Shown here: positions 3,157 to 50,160 of the stretch, in pieces
Layout: each line of letters starts with the position of its first letter
How positions within the stretch are numbered: the first letter of the stretch is position 1
Source: a virus
Reading direction: 5' to 3' (one strand)
IMG/VR virus record: IMGVR_UViG_3300044837_000112
Coordinates: 1 to 64,000 of that record
Length of the DNA stretch: 64,000 nt
Notes under the pieces: generated by a model
What the model saw: the letters and a program-made list of their open reading frames with translations, nothing else
Databases searched by the model: none
Told to the model about the DNA's origin: nothing
Translations under genes and position numbers: made by a program

Positions 3157-6102
3157 ATGGCCCGGACCAGAGTTAAGATCGACACCAAGGACGCCTGGAA
3201 TGCTGTCCAGGCGTTCGAGCACATGATCCCGCAGCTACGCACGTATGCTCGCGCCATGACGGGCAACGCCCGCCTCCAGGTACAGGTGACGGCCGGTCCT
3301 ACCCGGACAGACGGTAACACGATCTTCATCACACCGCCGCTGGCCCTCGCCAGCAAGGAGGTCCACTCGAAGCGGTCCGAGTGTGGAAAGCGCGCTGCTA
3401 ATGGCAAGCTGACCTGCAAGGCGTGCAATCTCCGAGAGGTCATCAACTTCTACCTGTTCCACGAGGTGTCGCACATCCTCTGGGGCACGCTTGCTGATTA
3501 CAACGAGTACTCGCTGGCTCTGTGGCACCGCATCTTTGAAGAGTGGCACCACGAAGACTGCGAACATTACGCGCCGATGCTGACGAAGTTGGACAGCAAC
3601 AGGGCCACCATGGGCCTGGCAAACCTGCTGACGCCGTTCACCGGCATGATGCTCAACGCCCTCGAGGATGCTCGGGTAAACGAGCGGACATTCGAGGTAC
3701 GCCCCGGCCTGCGAAAAATCTTTGCGATCAACATGGACCGCATGCTGATCGATGGCTCCGAGAGCCTGATGACTGGCGAGATGTGCCACTGGCGCGATCA
3801 GCCGCTCGATGCACAATTCATGGTCGGCCTGTACTTCGAAGCCAGTGGCTACGACGCGTCAGCGTTCCTGGCCGACGAGGCGATGGAGATGCTGCGGCAC
3901 CCCGAGATCGTCGCGCTGACTGGGTCGGTTCGCACGGCGGCGAACGTTGACGAAACCTTCGAGATCGTGATCAAGATCTGGCTCGTCGCACAAAAGTATG
4001 GCTTCTGCATCGTCGAGAAGTGCGTCAAGCCGGAACTTTCCAAGGAAGATGGAGACGACCCTGATGATGGGGATGCTGCGGAAGATGCTGCGGGGGATGA
4101 AGACGACTCTGCTGGCGACGATGGAGCCGACGGTACCGGAGAAGAGCCCGACGATTCAGGCGCTGGAAGCGGACCTCCTGAATCTGGAGGATCAGCTGGC
4201 GGCGGTGCGGGGACGGGTGCTGCAACTCCAGCGGAGAGCGACGACGGATCAACGACTAAGCCTGATCCGGGAGGAGAACCGCCTGCTGGGGGAAGTTCGG
4301 GAAGTGCGTCGGATTCTGACGTACCAGATAGAGAAGATGGAGATGTAGATGACCGAGCTACCGGGCGTGAAAGTGAAGCCGGACCTGACGGGATATCTGA
4401 GGGCACCGGAGCCGAGACTCCTGACGATGACGGAACTCCAGGAGAACCTGAACCAGGTGACGGTGATACTGATTCGGGAGATGGAGAATCCGCCGGACCC
4501 GGGAGCGCATCCGCCAAAGAGTCGGAAGAGCCTGATGGCGTGGCACCAGTTATACCTTCAGCAGCTGAAGGATCAGATGAAGTGGATCATCGCGGTCCAG
4601 AAGCAGATCCTGACGAATCCGGAGATGGACCTGACGACCGAGGCGATCCTGGCGACGAGATCCTGGGGAACTCAGACGCGGATGAGGACTCCGACGCTGA
4701 CGGAACTGCTGAATCACTACCGGGCGAAGCCGACGAGGGCGATAGAGTCCGTGGCGGCTGGATTGACGCAGGCCCAGCACGGTACGAAGAAAGCACGCCA
4801 CTCGACGACGCACCTGCTGGGAGTGACCCCGCCTGGGCTGAACGGTCGTCGGAGGAAGATCTCGATGTGGCGGACGCGGACCCTACGTCCGAGCGGAGAC
4901 GTGACGACTTCAGTCCAGACGACGGAGTACCCGATAGCGAAGAGCGCCCGGCCGCGTCGGACGGGCCCGACCCCGATGCGGACGATGCGCCCGACGGGCC
5001 CGTAGACGGCCCTAGCGGGCCCGTAGGGACGTCGGACGGCCCGACCCTAGGTCACGGCACCCCCGACGACGCAGCGACGGCCCTAGGACGCGTCATCATC
5101 CACAAACTACTGGAGGATATGGCTGGCGAGGACCTCTACGGCGTCATGGGTGGCGGCGAAGATGGTCACCCACTAGGCGGGGATGCCCTCGATGCCCTGA
5201 CGTTGGCCATCGCGCAGCGGATTCATTTCGACGAGGCTGCCTACGGCGTGTTGGGCCTCAATAAGCTCCCCTACCCATGCACGGACGTCGGCTGGCAATC
5301 AAGTCCTTACAGGAGCATCGAGCGCTACATGCCGTCGCCTGCATTGCTGGCACGGCCGACGTTGCTGGCTCGTCGGTTCTTCGAAGCCAACGCCATGACG
5401 AAGATCGACTCCAATCGAAAGTCGGGCCGTGTCAATGCCCGTGTCCTGGGTAGGCGAGCACCAACCGGTGACCCTCGCCTGTTTGGCAAGAAGGCTTTGC
5501 CGAAGAAGCACTCGTACGCCGTGACCATCGTCGTTGACTGCTCTGGCAGCATGGGCGATGAGAACATGGAAAAGATCAAAAGATATACAATGGCAATGGC
5601 TGAGATTCTGCATCGCCTGGGTATCCCGTTCTCAGTGTTCGGCCACTCCGCCTCGTCGACAAACCTGGACGATAACGCTCCCAGGTCAAGGTTCGAGGAG
5701 TATGGCAAGTACTGGATGTATATCATGCCGGTCAAAGAGATGCACGAGCCGTGGAACGACAAGGGCCGCGAAAAGCTGGTCGGCCTATCGTCGCTTCAGG
5801 CGAACCTGGACGGGCATGCACTTGAGTACGCACGCAAGTCTGTGATGCAGGCGGACGCTACCGATCGGATCATCTTCTATTTCAGTGACGGTGGCCTGCC
5901 AGCCGAGAACAGCACCGAGGAGAAGGAGATCATCACCCGGGAGATCACCTGGTGTCGCAAGAACAAGGTAACCCTCCTTGGCGGCGGCATCGACAGTAAC
6001 GCCACCGCCAAGGTAGGCATGGACACCGTGATCCTGCGCAGGCAGGAAGACATCACGAAGCTCATCGAATTCCTTCAGAAGAACCTGACCCGATCGGAGT
6101 AA
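3157..6102 (+). CDS. CobT-like VWA protein with HEVSH metallopeptidase-like domain
   Basis: 981 aa. An N-terminal zincin-like domain has HEVSH at 102-106 and a conserved-looking LEDAR at 169-173, as in VWA proteins that carry a putative metallopeptidase domain. Residues about 290-645 are a very acidic Asp/Glu/Gly/Ser/Pro linker. The C-terminus is a VWA domain with the MIDAS motif DCSGS at 794-798. CobT-type VWA proteins act with MoxR/CobS ATPases, and the ATPase gene lies just upstream. A perfect ribosome site (AAAGGAGGTG) precedes ATG 3157. The linker has aberrant third-position composition because two other genes appear to be encoded within it in the +1 frame (see 4064-5005). Confidence 0.88.
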   Translation: MARTRVKIDTKDAWNAVQAFEHMIPQLRTYARAMTGNARLQVQVTAGPTRTDGNTIFITPPLALASKEVHSKRSECGKRAANGKLTCKACNLREVINFYLFHEVSHILWGTLADYNEYSLALWHRIFEEWHHEDCEHYAPMLTKLDSNRATMGLANLLTPFTGMMLNALEDARVNERTFEVRPGLRKIFAINMDRMLIDGSESLMTGEMCHWRDQPLDAQFMVGLYFEASGYDASAFLADEAMEMLRHPEIVALTGSVRTAANVDETFEIVIKIWLVAQKYGFCIVEKCVKPELSKEDGDDPDDGDAAEDAAGDEDDSAGDDGADGTGEEPDDSGAGSGPPESGGSAGGGAGTGAATPAESDDGSTTKPDPGGEPPAGGSSGSASDSDVPDREDGDVDDRATGRESEAGPDGISEGTGAETPDDDGTPGEPEPGDGDTDSGDGESAGPGSASAKESEEPDGVAPVIPSAAEGSDEVDHRGPEADPDESGDGPDDRGDPGDEILGNSDADEDSDADGTAESLPGEADEGDRVRGGWIDAGPARYEESTPLDDAPAGSDPAWAERSSEEDLDVADADPTSERRRDDFSPDDGVPDSEERPAASDGPDPDADDAPDGPVDGPSGPVGTSDGPTLGHGTPDDAATALGRVIIHKLLEDMAGEDLYGVMGGGEDGHPLGGDALDALTLAIAQRIHFDEAAYGVLGLNKLPYPCTDVGWQSSPYRSIERYMPSPALLARPTLLARRFFEANAMTKIDSNRKSGRVNARVLGRRAPTGDPRLFGKKALPKKHSYAVTIVVDCSGSMGDENMEKIKRYTMAMAEILHRLGIPFSVFGHSASSTNLDDNAPRSRFEEYGKYWMYIMPVKEMHEPWNDKGREKLVGLSSLQANLDGHALEYARKSVMQADATDRIIFYFSDGGLPAENSTEEKEIITREITWCRKNKVTLLGGGIDSNATAKVGMDTVILRRQEDITKLIEFLQKNLTRSE
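4064..4348 (+). CDS. Nested overprinted gene 1: coiled-coil protein
   Basis: 94 aa read in the +1 frame inside the acidic linker of the VWA gene. The product has a Met-rich start, then from about residue 30 a clean heptad pattern (IQALEADLLNLEDQLAAV, later LIREENRLLGEVREV) typical of a coiled coil. ATG 4064 has GGAG nine bases upstream; ATG 4049 and 4121 are alternatives. The host frame uses mostly A/T third bases here (42 of 120 codons at 4141-4500 end in G/C, against 43 of 60 at 5101-5280), as expected if the middle codon positions of the +1 frame are constrained. The stop TAG abuts the next nested ATG. Function unknown. Confidence 0.55.
   Translation: MMGMLRKMLRGMKTTLLATMEPTVPEKSPTIQALEADLLNLEDQLAAVRGRVLQLQRRATTDQRLSLIREENRLLGEVREVRRILTYQIEKMEM
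4349..5005 (+). CDS. Nested overprinted gene 2
   Basis: 218 aa in the same +1 frame, starting immediately after the stop of nested gene 1 (TAGATG), with GGAG six bases before the ATG. The first 130 residues look like an ordinary soluble helical protein (MTELQENLNQVTVILIREME; WHQLYLQQLKDQMKWIIAV; LTELLNHYRAKPTRAIES). The rest is basic and Pro/Thr/Arg-rich. The third-base composition of the VWA frame returns to normal just past the end of this frame. Together with nested gene 1 it would be translated from the VWA message by internal initiation. No family is recognised. Confidence 0.55.
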   Translation: MTELPGVKVKPDLTGYLRAPEPRLLTMTELQENLNQVTVILIREMENPPDPGAHPPKSRKSLMAWHQLYLQQLKDQMKWIIAVQKQILTNPEMDLTTEAILATRSWGTQTRMRTPTLTELLNHYRAKPTRAIESVAAGLTQAQHGTKKARHSTTHLLGVTPPGLNGRRRKISMWRTRTLRPSGDVTTSVQTTEYPIAKSARPRRTGPTPMRTMRPTGP

Positions 6103-24046: not shown

Positions 24047-24497
24047 ACCCGACTTCGAACACGGCGAGCCCGCACCAAAGCCAGGAACTGGTCCATCGAT
24101 GCATGACCTGATCCTGGAAAATATCAAGATGCAACGCTTCATGTCCGAGCAGCATCTTGCAAACGGAGTCGCGCCGATCAACTCGCTGGCGACGCTCGAT
24201 GCTGCAGCGGAGCGTATCAAGCGTCGCAAGGAATACGGCGCGGAGAAGTACAAAACAATCCTCCAGGCAAACAACGGTCGCGACTCCCTCAACGATCTCC
24301 TCGACGAGATGGAAGACGTGCTCGCCTACAGCCGACAGCACGCCGAGGAGTTCGCCCAGTCGGAGATCGTGGATCTGGATGTCTTCAACATGATGCTGGC
24401 GCAGAAGCGTAACGTCTTCCTCCGGCTCCTTGACATCTACCTCGACCTGATAGAGATGAAGATCCTGCAGGAGCCGGCGGTCGATAGTGCCATATGA
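24036..24497 (+). CDS. Hypothetical helical protein, MazG-like in part
   Basis: 153 aa, all helical. The segment YGAEKYKTILQANNGRDSLN, then DLLDEMEDVLAYSRQ resembles all-alpha NTP pyrophosphohydrolases (E-x-x-D helix in MazG/dUTPase-type folds), but I do not see the full E-x-x-E...E-x-x-D set, so the assignment is weak. Overlaps the methyltransferase gene. Confidence 0.6.
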   Translation: MGTEPDFEHGEPAPKPGTGPSMHDLILENIKMQRFMSEQHLANGVAPINSLATLDAAAERIKRRKEYGAEKYKTILQANNGRDSLNDLLDEMEDVLAYSRQHAEEFAQSEIVDLDVFNMMLAQKRNVFLRLLDIYLDLIEMKILQEPAVDSAI

Positions 24498-25218
24498 CGA
24501 GAACGGCCGGTACCACGACATCTGGTTGGGCGACAGCGCAGAGCTGGCCACGAAGTTCAAGCCAGGAACGATCAACTGTGTCATCACAGATCCACCGTTC
24601 GGCGTCGACAACCAGAGCAACATGGCCGTCACTGCTGCCGGCAAGGCCAACGCACGGAAGATCGCGAACGACGAGTCGCCAGAAGTAGCTATCAAGGTCT
24701 TCAACCAGGTGATGGACGAACTGCTTCCGAGGACCGCCGATAACGCCGACCTCTACATATTCACCGCGCAGCAGGTCCTGAAGGATTGGCTCGGCGTGGC
24801 GGACGAACTAGGCCGTCACGGGTACGCCCGGTGTGCTACATTGGTCTGGGTCAAGGACGGTCCGGGCATGGGCGACCTAGAAACGTGGGGCCAGGGGTAC
24901 GAATTCATCCTGTTCCTCAAGAAGGGCCGACGCCCAAGATCGGACGGAGTCAACCGTCGATCCGGGATTCTGACGTTCCCACAGTTGCGACCTAGCGATC
25001 TCATTCACCCTCACGAGAAGCCAGTGCCGCTTCTTACTGAACTGATCCGATGGTCCACCAATCCTGGTGACTGGATCGTCGATCCTTTTAGTGGGTCCGG
25101 GTCGACGGTACGTGCAGCAAAAGCAAACGGTCGGAACTCGATCGGCATGGAGCTTGATCCCCATAATCATGCCAGGGCACACGAAAAGCTCACGACAGGT
25201 GAGTCAGAACTCTTTTAA
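24487..25218 (+). CDS. DNA methyltransferase, beta class (N6-adenine or N4-cytosine)
   Basis: 243 aa, GTG start. DPPF at 35-38 (motif IV) precedes the AdoMet-binding motif DPFSGSGST at 199-207, the order of the beta class. LIHPHEKPVPLLTELIRWS and ELDPHNHARA are typical flanking segments. The central target-recognition part is short. It is a solitary enzyme without a visible nuclease partner, so it most likely protects phage DNA or marks it. It ends in GESELF, loosely like a clamp-binding tail. Confidence 0.9.
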   Translation: MPYDENGRYHDIWLGDSAELATKFKPGTINCVITDPPFGVDNQSNMAVTAAGKANARKIANDESPEVAIKVFNQVMDELLPRTADNADLYIFTAQQVLKDWLGVADELGRHGYARCATLVWVKDGPGMGDLETWGQGYEFILFLKKGRRPRSDGVNRRSGILTFPQLRPSDLIHPHEKPVPLLTELIRWSTNPGDWIVDPFSGSGSTVRAAKANGRNSIGMELDPHNHARAHEKLTTGESELF

Positions 25219-28536: not shown

Positions 28537-29229
28537 CTATTCGCCGAGCTTCGACGTAGGCGAGTGGGGCGTCGCGACTGATGGGGTGGGCGGCGCGACC
28601 GGGGCGGTCTGCGCCGCGATCTTGTCGAGGTCCTTGATCATCTGCGGGTTCTGGATGTTGACCTCGGTGTTTGTCCGAGCGCGCAGCTGCACCAGCAACT
28701 GTGCGACCGTACCCTTGTCCGGCAGTGTGTACTCCATGATCGCCTTCGCGATCTCGTCAGCAGTAGGCATGTCGCCCTCCATGAAATCGATGAGTGAGAC
28801 GGGGGGAATGTACGCTTCGGCAACCAGGTCGTAACCAGTCCCGGTTGCCGCGTTCTTGCCTGTCGAGCCGTGCTTGCTGGACACGTGGATGTGATCCTTG
28901 TGCCGGTCGCGGTTCGGGTTGTTCGGCTGATAGGGCGCACCCTTCCAGCCGTTGGCCTCATTGCGGCCGTAGATCCGGTCGTCGTGAATCACGTACTGTA
29001 GGTCGGTGACGTCGCCGAGCAGCCACGCCAGGATGATCGGGGCGGCGGCAGCATAGGACGTGTCGGTCCTGGTCATGATGTCGAGCGCATGCCAGATACC
29101 ACGCGAATCAGCGTTGTGGTCCGACCTCTCGGACTGATGCTTGGGGTCTCCAAAGGAGAAGATCGTCATCGCCGGATAGACGGCGTGGACCATCGCCTGG
29201 CGAGCGGCGAGGTTCCTGGCGAGTGGCAT
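28537..29229 (-). CDS. Endolysin, M15-type peptidase domain
   Basis: 230 aa. H38 (SDHN), D50 (HALDI) and H115 in HKDHIHVS give the zinc-ligand pattern of M15/VanY-like peptidases that cut peptidoglycan stem peptides. The C-terminal 90 residues are helical then Pro/Thr-rich and may anchor to the cell wall. ATG 29229 is chosen because GGAGG lies six bases upstream and it shares a base with the holin stop; a longer open frame upstream reads implausible Cys/Arg-rich sequence. No second lytic domain is visible. Confidence 0.8.
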   Translation of the reverse strand: MPLARNLAARQAMVHAVYPAMTIFSFGDPKHQSERSDHNADSRGIWHALDIMTRTDTSYAAAAPIILAWLLGDVTDLQYVIHDDRIYGRNEANGWKGAPYQPNNPNRDRHKDHIHVSSKHGSTGKNAATGTGYDLVAEAYIPPVSLIDFMEGDMPTADEIAKAIMEYTLPDKGTVAQLLVQLRARTNTEVNIQNPQMIKDLDKIAAQTAPVAPPTPSVATPHSPTSKLGE

Positions 29230-29693
29230 CACTTGCCTCCGATGCTGGGGGGTGGTGGAAGATACAGGGGTAGGCCAGTTATCGGCCGAGGTGTAGCGGG
29301 AGTGTCCGCAGCAGTGTTTACCACCGCGACTGCATCGGTTGCAACAGCGAGCCCTGCGGCAACGTGACTCGGATCGTTGACGGGATCGGGCTTGTAGACA
29401 ACGACACGTTGATTTGCCGTGACTGCACCGCGAGTCCAGAACGCCTGGACGAGTCCCACGACTGCAGTAGCAAGAGCAATAACAGCTCCAGTACTCTGAT
29501 CTGAGACAACCAGTCCAGCCGCACCAGCAAGCGCAGCAACGGCAACCACTGCACCTCGATACATGGCCGGTTCGAGGTGCGTGAGGTGCCACCAGAATCC
29601 AACGTCCTCCGGGATGCCGTCGGCATGAAAGTCAACCGCCTCGTCCTTGAGAAGCTCCAGCCCCTTTACGAGCTGACTTACATTGAGCGCCAT
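29229..29693 (-). CDS. Holin, two membrane helices
   Basis: 154 aa. After a soluble 45-residue N-terminus two hydrophobic helices follow (AVVAVAALAGAAGLVV and AVIALATAVVGLVQAF) separated by a short polar turn, then WTRGAVTANQRV, a context typical of actinophage holins. It would oligomerise in the membrane and release the endolysin encoded just downstream. GGAGG precedes ATG 29693. Confidence 0.8.
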   Translation of the reverse strand: MALNVSQLVKGLELLKDEAVDFHADGIPEDVGFWWHLTHLEPAMYRGAVVAVAALAGAAGLVVSDQSTGAVIALATAVVGLVQAFWTRGAVTANQRVVVYKPDPVNDPSHVAAGLAVATDAVAVVNTAADTPATPRPITGLPLYLPPPPSIGGK

Positions 29694-48023: not shown

Positions 48024-49331
48024 TTAGACGCTCCCGTCGAGTACAGAGATGGTGTAGGTAGCGGTGAGGTCCATGTGGAGGAAGACCGGGAACGCCTTGA
48101 TTCCCGTGCCGACGTCCATACCCCAGGGGTCGACGCCGAAATCCTTCTCCCACTCGTAATAGCCGGACGTCCAGTTACCGGCCGGGTGCGGCGAGGTCAG
48201 CGTCTTCGCGAAGCCGATCTGGGTGTCGTCGAACTGGGCAATGTCATCCTCGGATGGGAGGAAGATCACCTTGTTCTGCGGCAGGAAGCGGTTGTTGGTA
48301 GTAACGGTCGCTCCGACCGACCGAGTACGGTAGACCGCGTCGTACTCGATGAACGTGAGGCCGGTCGCGTTCTCAATGATTGCCTGAGCCGCCGACGGCG
48401 ACCAGCCATCGAGCAGGTACTTCGGGTCGATCGGCGAGGATAGCGGACTGCCAGCCGCCACAAGGCCGGTACGCGCCGTGAACTTCGCCGAGTTCCAGAT
48501 CTGGCTCAGCAGACGACGCGAGGCGATGGCTCGGTTGAGTCGGATGCCGTACGTGTCGTAGAACCAGTTCTGGAGGTTGATGATGTCGCCGATGGGGTCA
48601 CCGGTACCATCACTCTTGATCCAGGAGCTGCTGTTAAGCGTGATGTTCGCGGCGTTACCAGCCGGGTCGATCAGCGTACTGCCCATCACCATGTTCTGCT
48701 GGGCTGGACGCTGGAAGTCAACGGTGAAGTTGATTCGACCATCGTTGTAAGCGATGGCGCCGGTGGAGAGCGCATTCATGATGAGCCACTCCATCCGGTT
48801 GTCGATCTTGCGCCGACGCCGGAGGGTATCACGGGCAAGCCGCGCCTGCCAGTCCTCGGTGGCCGACTGTGCCGTGAGGGGCAGGTTGCTGGTGTCCCGG
48901 AGTTGCTGCTGGATCAGCAGCCATTCCCGGTATCGACTGACATCGGATGCGCTGTAGTGGTCCTTGACTGCCCAGTCAATGACGGACGCGCGACCCTCCA
49001 GCTCGAAGATGTCGTCCTTCTGACTCAGTTCCGATTCCGCGTCTTCTGCGCGGGCCGGAACCAGGCCATCGGACATGCCGAGGGCGTACTGGAAGATCAC
49101 GTCGTCCGTCGGGACCTCGAGGAACGGCGCGATAAGGCTCAGACCGATGTGGTTCTGCGGCAGAACGATCTCGCGAATGACACCAAGCGAGACCTCCTTC
49201 CGGACCAGTCGGTCCTGAGGGATAGGAGTTGCGAACTGGCTTCCACCAGCCACGCCGTGACCGAGACCGAACTGAGGACCAGTCGTCGTCGACGGCGCGG
49301 CCGGGAAGGCAAGCCCAGCACCAGTTGTCAT
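48024..49331 (-). CDS. Major capsid protein (lambda gpE-like)
   Basis: 435 aa from ATG 49331. ASVIDWAVKDHYSASDVSRY, ARLARDTLRRRRKIDNRMEW, AYNDGRINFTVDFQRP and the C-terminal FLHMDLTATYTISVLDGSV fit the HK97-fold Phage_cap_E (gpE) family, which uses a separate small decoration protein; the D-like gene is immediately upstream. The longer open frame to 49616 reads Arg/Ser/Cys-rich and is not coding. Confidence 0.92.
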   Translation of the reverse strand: MTTGAGLAFPAAPSTTTGPQFGLGHGVAGGSQFATPIPQDRLVRKEVSLGVIREIVLPQNHIGLSLIAPFLEVPTDDVIFQYALGMSDGLVPARAEDAESELSQKDDIFELEGRASVIDWAVKDHYSASDVSRYREWLLIQQQLRDTSNLPLTAQSATEDWQARLARDTLRRRRKIDNRMEWLIMNALSTGAIAYNDGRINFTVDFQRPAQQNMVMGSTLIDPAGNAANITLNSSSWIKSDGTGDPIGDIINLQNWFYDTYGIRLNRAIASRRLLSQIWNSAKFTARTGLVAAGSPLSSPIDPKYLLDGWSPSAAQAIIENATGLTFIEYDAVYRTRSVGATVTTNNRFLPQNKVIFLPSEDDIAQFDDTQIGFAKTLTSPHPAGNWTSGYYEWEKDFGVDPWGMDVGTGIKAFPVFLHMDLTATYTISVLDGSV

Positions 49332-49389
49332 GGAAACATCCTCTGTGTTCGGATCGGGATCGACTGCTTGGCTGTTATTGGGCCGTCGA

Positions 49390-50160
49390 CTACTGGAAAG
49401 TGAGCGACAGAGTCTTTTGGGCAACCGTCGCCGTTGCAGTCGCATTCTGCATCGCCTGCGCGATGCCAGCTGCGGTAAGTTCGATGCACCAAGCCTGGAC
49501 ACAGGTAGCGTCGTATGTGACGGCGATCTCCCGGTCCGACTCCAGCAGTTGCCAGGGCAGGAAGGTGTCGTTGACGCCGACGATACCCGCCGTGCTGCTG
49601 CGGCCATCGAGGGCACCGGCGATACCAGTCGTAGTGTGCACCGGCGTGATCGTCGGGCTAGAGCCGGTGACTGAGGCGATGCTCATAGAGAGCGTCACCG
49701 GACCGGCGAGGTTGCCAGCCGCCGTGTAGACGGTGGCGGTCGTCAGCTGCGGACCGCCGGTGACGAGCAGGTTACCCGCACCAACGCTGGAAAGTGCCTG
49801 GACGGCCGTCTGGATCGTCGCGATCGAGGCGTTGAACGCCAGTGCTGGGGTCGTCTGACCATTGACGGTAATCGTGAACGTACCCGCCGACCAGGTACCA
49901 CCCGGAGTCAGCGTCCAGACGTCAGCGGTACCGGCCGCCTGGAACGGGCCGATCTTGCCAGAGTCGGGACCGGAGGTGATCTTGGCCATCACCGTACCGG
50001 GCTGAAGGATCTTCTGGGTAGAGCCGTCAATGATGACGACGCCGGGAACGGAGTTCTTCGCGACTGTGTACGACGTCTTCTTGACACCAACCGTGGACCG
50101 GAGATACCGGTTGACACCGAACGGAGTCTGGAGCGCGCCGCCCTTGGAAAAGCCGGGCAT
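49390..50160 (-). CDS. Head decoration protein (gpD-like) with added Ig-like domain
   Basis: 256 aa, more than twice lambda gpD. The D-like core is split into SGPDSGKIGPF (before) and STAGIVGVNDTFLPWQLLES (after). Between them, about 85-180, is a domain (GTFTITVNGQTTPALAFNAS; IQTAVQALSSVGAGNLLVTG; GSSPTITPVHTTTG) closely similar to that in the tail tube protein. The core stabilises the capsid, while the domain would project outward. Confidence 0.85.
   Translation of the reverse strand: MPGFSKGGALQTPFGVNRYLRSTVGVKKTSYTVAKNSVPGVVIIDGSTQKILQPGTVMAKITSGPDSGKIGPFQAAGTADVWTLTPGGTWSAGTFTITVNGQTTPALAFNASIATIQTAVQALSSVGAGNLLVTGGPQLTTATVYTAAGNLAGPVTLSMSIASVTGSSPTITPVHTTTGIAGALDGRSSTAGIVGVNDTFLPWQLLESDREIAVTYDATCVQAWCIELTAAGIAQAMQNATATATVAQKTLSLTFQ

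Follow-up and report, generated by a model that had tools for sequence, protein, structure and literature searches.

Candidate overprinted genes in the acidic linker of a phage HExxH-VWA protein and its homologues

The stretch of DNA analysed here (hereafter the window) comprises 64,000 bases of an IMG/VR virus record that is 78,971 bases long, a genome of ~79 kb, and its terminase, head, tail, primase-helicase and polymerase genes identify it as belonging to a tailed phage. A DNA N6/N4 methyltransferase (24487-25218; PF01555, E=3e-26) lies among its replication genes. Two genes on the + strand, both with relatives in phages of Gordonia, Tsukamurella and Rhodococcus, encode a MoxR/CobS-like AAA+ ATPase of 539 aa (1219-2838; PHROG 5424, Pfam AAA_5) and a 981-aa VWA protein (3157-6102; PHROG 5298, "CobT-like", E=9e-130); the ATPase gene adjoins the VWA gene in the relatives too. 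The VWA gene, whose ATG is preceded at 6 nt on its 5' side by the Shine-Dalgarno (SD) sequence AAAGGAGG, specifies an N-terminal HExxH domain joined through an acidic linker to a VWA domain at the C-terminus. The HExxH motif reads HEVSH at residues 102-106 (window 3460-3474) and is invariant in the 32 homologues examined. An EDxR motif downstream of it is seen in many members of the "CobT-like cobalamin biosynthesis protein" family.

These proteins resemble CobS/CobT and other MoxR AAA+/VWA pairs in the placement of an AAA_5 ATPase next to a VWA protein, in the acidic linker and in a match to the CobT C-terminal VWA domain (CobT_C, PF11775), which scores above cutoff in the window (E=1e-4), Reynauld, Woes, Katyusha and the homologue L044, and below it in Mbo2. 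They differ from them in the invariant HExxH of the N-terminal domain. We rejected an identification of the host protein as the CobT cobaltochelatase subunit: the VWA part corresponds, but the CobT N-terminal domain has no Pfam or NCBIfam match in the phage protein, and no cobalamin genes were seen among the window genes examined. The family name "CobT-like" probably hides a metallopeptidase-VWA protein.

An initial annotation of this DNA proposed that the +1 frame of the linker encodes two proteins, of 94 and 218 aa, across a TAGATG, each with a ribosome site. This layout is indeed present on the + strand: the +1 frame is open from 3971 to 4345, with an ATG at 4064 giving 94 aa, and, after the TAGATG, again from 4349 to 5002 (218 aa). 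The first nested ORF (ORF1, 4064-4348) follows a putative Shine-Dalgarno GGAG at 4051-4054, 9 nt before its ATG. At its end lies a stop-restart junction of the form GGAG-atg-TAG-ATG (4339-4351), resembling junctions in relatives, in which the GGAG at 4339, 6 nt before the ATG at 4349, would serve the second (ORF2). ORF2 falls into two parts, namely 4349-4720, its first ~124 residues, to which GC3, codon score and predicted helices lend support, and a C-terminal tail (4721-5005) that is open and predicted to be disordered. ORF1 draws on GC3, the codon model, heptad contrast and AlphaFold2 (AF2) prediction.

Such an open frame could be a compositional artefact, in which a linker built from D/E/G/S/P has few +1 stops and codons that have drifted or that avoid GC-rich repeats, so that GC3 falls with no second gene behind it. 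As regards length this is sound: if the amino acids of the linker are kept constant and codons are sampled at the frequencies of this phage, the longest +1 ORF expected by chance is 202±64 codons against 218 observed. Consequently the open +1 frame was rejected as evidence by itself, in keeping with the initial annotation, which had called it weak. When the gene's own codons were permuted among synonymous sites over 4063-5004, 4.9±1.1 +1 stops were expected and 2 were observed (p=0.014).

The third bases of the VWA frame carry a stronger signal. Their G/C preference had been reported as lost over the linker from hand counts of G/C-ending codons that prove exact (42/120 at 4141-4500, 43/60 at 5101-5280), and the loss is highly significant, with a change-point scan placing the best-fitting low-GC3 segment of the VWA gene, the putative dual-coding footprint, at 4033-4650 on the + strand (GC3 0.35 versus 0.76 elsewhere, LR 115). 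Under the chance model above, GC3 is 0.37 against 0.57 expected in the ORF1 region (4063-4347) and 0.39 against 0.59 in the first part of ORF2 (4348-4719), each matched in at most 1/5000 draws, while the ORF2 tail (4720-5004) stands at 0.66 against 0.59 expected, so that its last ~95 codons are without a dual-coding signal. The anomaly therefore ends near 4650-4720, and not near the end of the nested frame at 5005 as had been claimed. It begins ~30 nt before the proposed start codon at 4064, and an onset near the nested start together with an end inside the linker speaks against a compositional origin. A model of codon use built from 15 other genes of this phage favours the +1 over the VWA frame from ~4057 to 4776; across the whole nested stretch the +1 reading scores z=+4.3 and frame 0 z=-9.2, and the supported part of ORF2 (4349-4720) by itself scores z=3.8 in +1. 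The codon signal is carried by ORF1 and the first ~124 codons of ORF2, the tail being excluded. Among the confident genes of the 79-kb genome the VWA gene alone shows such an internal +1 preference, besides two hits that look like start overlaps. One of these, 48024-49616, overlaps the start of the neighbouring gene at 49390-50160, and its own ORF start is hence probably placed too far upstream; the other is 28537-29592 on the - strand.

Comparison of homologues in both frames, which the initial annotation had proposed, was possible for one suitable pair. Searches of IMG/VR with N-terminal, C-terminal and AAA queries found no close relatives of the window, a profile (A2) search of GTDB genomes gave no match, and L044/L045, considered as a second pair, turned out to be identical in sequence. 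In the Gordonia phages Orchid, Gibbles and RobinSparkles the linker of the homologous VWA gene contains a 133-codon +1 ORF, with AGGA 5 nt before its ATG; this homologue is distant from the window and its nested protein is unrelated in sequence to the window's. Between RobinSparkles and Orchid, differences at VWA codon positions 1/2/3 number 20/2/5 inside the nested ORF and 21/14/128 outside it (12/4/53 upstream, 9/10/75 downstream; Fisher p=8e-11 for position 1 versus 3, inside versus outside), with third-position changes of frame 0 suppressed about five-fold inside. Of the 27 differences inside, 24 change the linker protein (frame 0 syn/nonsyn 3/24) and 20 are silent in the other frame (+1 syn/nonsyn 20/7). 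Neither a nested stop nor an indel separates the two phages, and identity across the nested ORF is 95% in +1 versus 82% in frame 0. This outcome favours dual coding: the second frame is under purifying selection in the Orchid-group homologue, where +1 appears as the more conserved frame of the gene. Relaxed selection would spread changes evenly over the codon positions, and the pattern, with most changes synonymous in +1, thus speaks against it and against a compositional artefact. The same shift in position would also arise from a gene on the opposite strand, in register with frame 0; yet that antisense frame is closed, with 6-7 stops in the nested region of the Orchid group, and closed likewise in the window, and we therefore rejected an antisense reading.

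A control is offered by GordTnk2 and Gmala1, which lack a protein-like +1 product. Their differences, 18/12/46, follow the ordinary third-position pattern, and their linkers align with 19 gapped codons, one of the two having a +1 stop. These linkers (L017, L018) consist of D/S/Q-rich low-complexity repeats whose lengths differ between the phages; they maintain the linker by other means and make a useful control. Their mild GC3 depression (z -2.5) in the absence of a protein-like +1 product is a point for the compositional artefact, as are the long open +1 frames in the acidic linkers of L026 (283 codons), L057 (257) and Jumbo (257). On the other side, equally acidic control linkers keep normal or raised GC3, with z of +4.0 in L026, +5.3 in L057, +0.9 in L064, +0.7 in Camerico and +0.8 in Jumbo. 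With the RobinSparkles/Orchid pattern added to this, we consider it improbable that composition without a second gene accounts for the locus.

Scored by +1 sequence and GC3, and with nested-ORF boundaries in several relatives chosen after inspection, 16 of the 32 homologues examined appear to carry nested +1 ORFs, ~11 of them with strong support. The strong cases are the window, the Rhodococcus phages Mbo2 and Reynauld, Orchid/RobinSparkles, L020, L032, L033, L042, L043 and L044, and the weaker ones L021, L023, L046, L048 and L056. In 14 phages the GC3 of the linker lies below expectation, at z -3.4 to -8.9; in the Orchid group, the genome of which is AT-richer, the drop is weak (z -1.0 and -1.9). 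Restricting the count to D/E/G/S/P/T/A codons, GC3 in the nested region versus the linker beyond it is 0.38 versus 0.69 in the window, 0.46 versus 0.78 in Mbo2, 0.43 versus 0.78 in L044 and 0.46 versus 0.85 in L021. By these measures the codon signature of +1 coding is present in the window and at least about ten other homologues and absent from the acidic-linker controls. SD sequences are present at nested starts among the homologues, and TAG(n0-3)ATG junctions, which read in frame 0 as sequences like G-D-V-D-D, occur in Mbo2 (two), L020, L032, L042, L043 and L046. The short-linker relatives Woes, PokyPuppy, TIN2 and Austin have no nested ORF. On a tree of the VWA proteins, the nested label needs five changes, and the window's sister is L042 (100/99), with a layout like the window's, in which a coiled-coil ORF is followed, across a TAGATG, by another. 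The linker of Mbo2 (L002) seemingly holds three consecutive +1 ORFs at 4956-5630, the first and third with strong predicted transmembrane (TM) helices.

Frame 0 still behaves as a functional coding frame under selection: no frame-0 stop was found in any nested homologue tested, and conserved domains flank the linker on both sides. Among informative codons, the third bases of the +1 codons prefer NNG over NNC at 0.82-0.93, versus 0.41-0.53 in normal frames, an excess that would be expected if frame 0 has to stay D/E/G/A-rich. Taken together, we read the acidic linker as a same-strand overprinted region that would encode a disordered linker in frame 0 and one to three small proteins in +1, with a rough probability of 0.85. 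The proposal in the initial annotation that the linker is shaped by a second set of proteins is supported, mainly by the relatives; within the window this support covers ORF1 and ORF2 to ~4720 and does not extend to the ORF2 tail (4720-5005).

Alternatively, the +1 frame might have no start codon of its own and be reached solely by frameshifting from the N-terminal HExxH domain, which it would then extend. Some nested frames are open far upstream of the first SD-ATG, as in Mbo2 (from 4737, 73 codons), which would suit such an extension; but the Mbo2 linker upstream of the ATG at 4956 keeps a GC3 of ~0.78 though +1 is open there, and the signal sets in where the SD-start pairs lie. We regard an extension of this kind as very improbable.

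Under the preferred reading of an overprinted linker, the products in the window would be a 94-aa helical hairpin or coiled coil followed by a second helical product, ~120 aa long or longer. ORF1 is predicted to form an antiparallel helical hairpin or coiled coil (residues 29-58 and 61-93). Its AlphaFold2 model from the single sequence has a mean pLDDT of 74, with 76-86 in blocks spanning 31-90, and its heptad contrast exceeds that of synonymous-codon permutations (p=0.018). ORF2 has predicted helices at 27-46 and 59-89 (AF2 pLDDT ~67-69), and its tail reaches ~40. The nested products of Mbo2, Reynauld and Orchid have predicted TM segments whose hydrophobicity exceeds that of most codon permutations (p 0.001-0.046). 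PHROGs, Pfam and tblastn searches recovered no homologues of the nested proteins in known families or among un-nested phage genes. Compared all against all, the nested proteins are mostly unrelated; the best pair is L042-ORF2/L043-ORF2 (z 8.4), followed by L044/L046 (z 6.6, to which sequence preceding the nested start contributes), and ORF1 of the window and of L042 reach z 2.9. Such weak resemblance suggests that the position is shared and that the product changes fast or is replaced.

ORF1 is probably translated by internal initiation, which would use the GGAG at 4051, and ORF2 by termination-reinitiation at the TAGATG, where ribosomes ending at the TAG at 4346 would restart at the ATG at 4349 with the help of the GGAG at 4339. 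Internal initiation and restart of this kind would have the nested proteins produced alongside the AAA+/VWA machine. From this presumed co-expression we would guess that they act with or on that machine, for instance as adaptor, membrane anchor or substrate. The frame-0 D/E/G/S/P linker is seemingly kept for its composition, as a tether or for solubility, and not for its sequence. Selection on composition would leave the second frame nearly free, and this may be why the site hosts nested genes. It is possible, though we propose it tentatively and at somewhat less than even odds, that the linker is a recurrent site of gene birth, at which unrelated helical or membrane +1 proteins have repeatedly arisen or been replaced, in tandem, linked by stop-restart junctions and co-produced with the AAA+/VWA pair.

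The order of origin could also be the reverse, with the +1 genes older and the linker added to the VWA gene later, by readthrough of a gene pair already in place; this reading likewise accepts dual coding. There is a parallel in hepatitis B virus (HBV), where part of the polymerase spacer has been proposed as a newcomer read through an older gene. Codon usage in the nested +1 frame matches the phage more closely than does that of frame 0, which by the codon-usage criterion (PMC8227390) points to older +1 genes, but this criterion is a poor guide where frame 0 can vary freely. Un-nested acidic linkers occur in several branches, nested proteins are unrelated between branches, and no un-nested homologue of them was found. 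Codon usage thus favours older +1 genes and the phyletic pattern an older linker; on balance we hold the former order to be unlikely.

Out-of-frame nested genes in dsDNA phages are best known from the spanins, and gene finders usually discard them. The N-terminal region of paramyxovirus P is disordered. That overprinting occurs and is tied to disordered regions is well established (PMC8227390), and three known systems resemble the present one in part. As here, the HBV preS gene overlaps a flexible tether, the polymerase spacer, between two domains of a larger viral protein (PMC9093120); unlike here, the genome is that of a compact animal virus and a single long overlap continues into the RT domain, in contrast to the one to three short complete ORFs lying wholly within the linker in a ~79-kb dsDNA phage, whose product varies among relatives. 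The embedded spanins Rz/Rz1 of lambda likewise have a dsDNA phage gene wholly embedded in the +1 frame of another, but there the embedded product, Rz1, is a lipoprotein and belongs to a lysis cassette of Gram-negative phages (PMC6139136), whereas the present host gene is metallopeptidase-like/VWA, with no lipoprotein or lysis context seen. We rejected an embedded spanin here, as the host gene is not an i-spanin (PHROG 5298) and the nested proteins, when inspected, showed no obvious lipobox; the endolysin/esterase families PF01510 and PF01083, sought in the genome in connection with a lysis role, were not found. The paramyxovirus C protein is a small protein overprinted on the N-terminal region of the larger P (PMC3934983), in this case in an RNA virus, with one overlapping frame and no tandem ORFs coupled by TAGATG. 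We found no report in the literature of nested genes in a phage gene of the PHROG 5298 type; a 2026 survey that includes Reynauld and Mbo2 says nothing of nested genes or of CobT, and the deposited annotations of Orchid, RobinSparkles, Gibbles, Mbo2 and Reynauld list no nested genes. Overprinting as such is known; tandem +1 arrays recurring in a linker of dsDNA phages represent a new form of it.

The nested genes recur in relatives across much of the protein family, including isolated, culturable phages, and with Orchid, RobinSparkles, Gibbles, Mbo2 and Reynauld as carriers the question becomes testable in the laboratory. They raise the questions of whether disordered linkers act as permissive hosts for new genes and of how two frames share one sequence, and suggest that acidic linkers whose third bases depart from the usage of their genome are worth screening for hidden genes.
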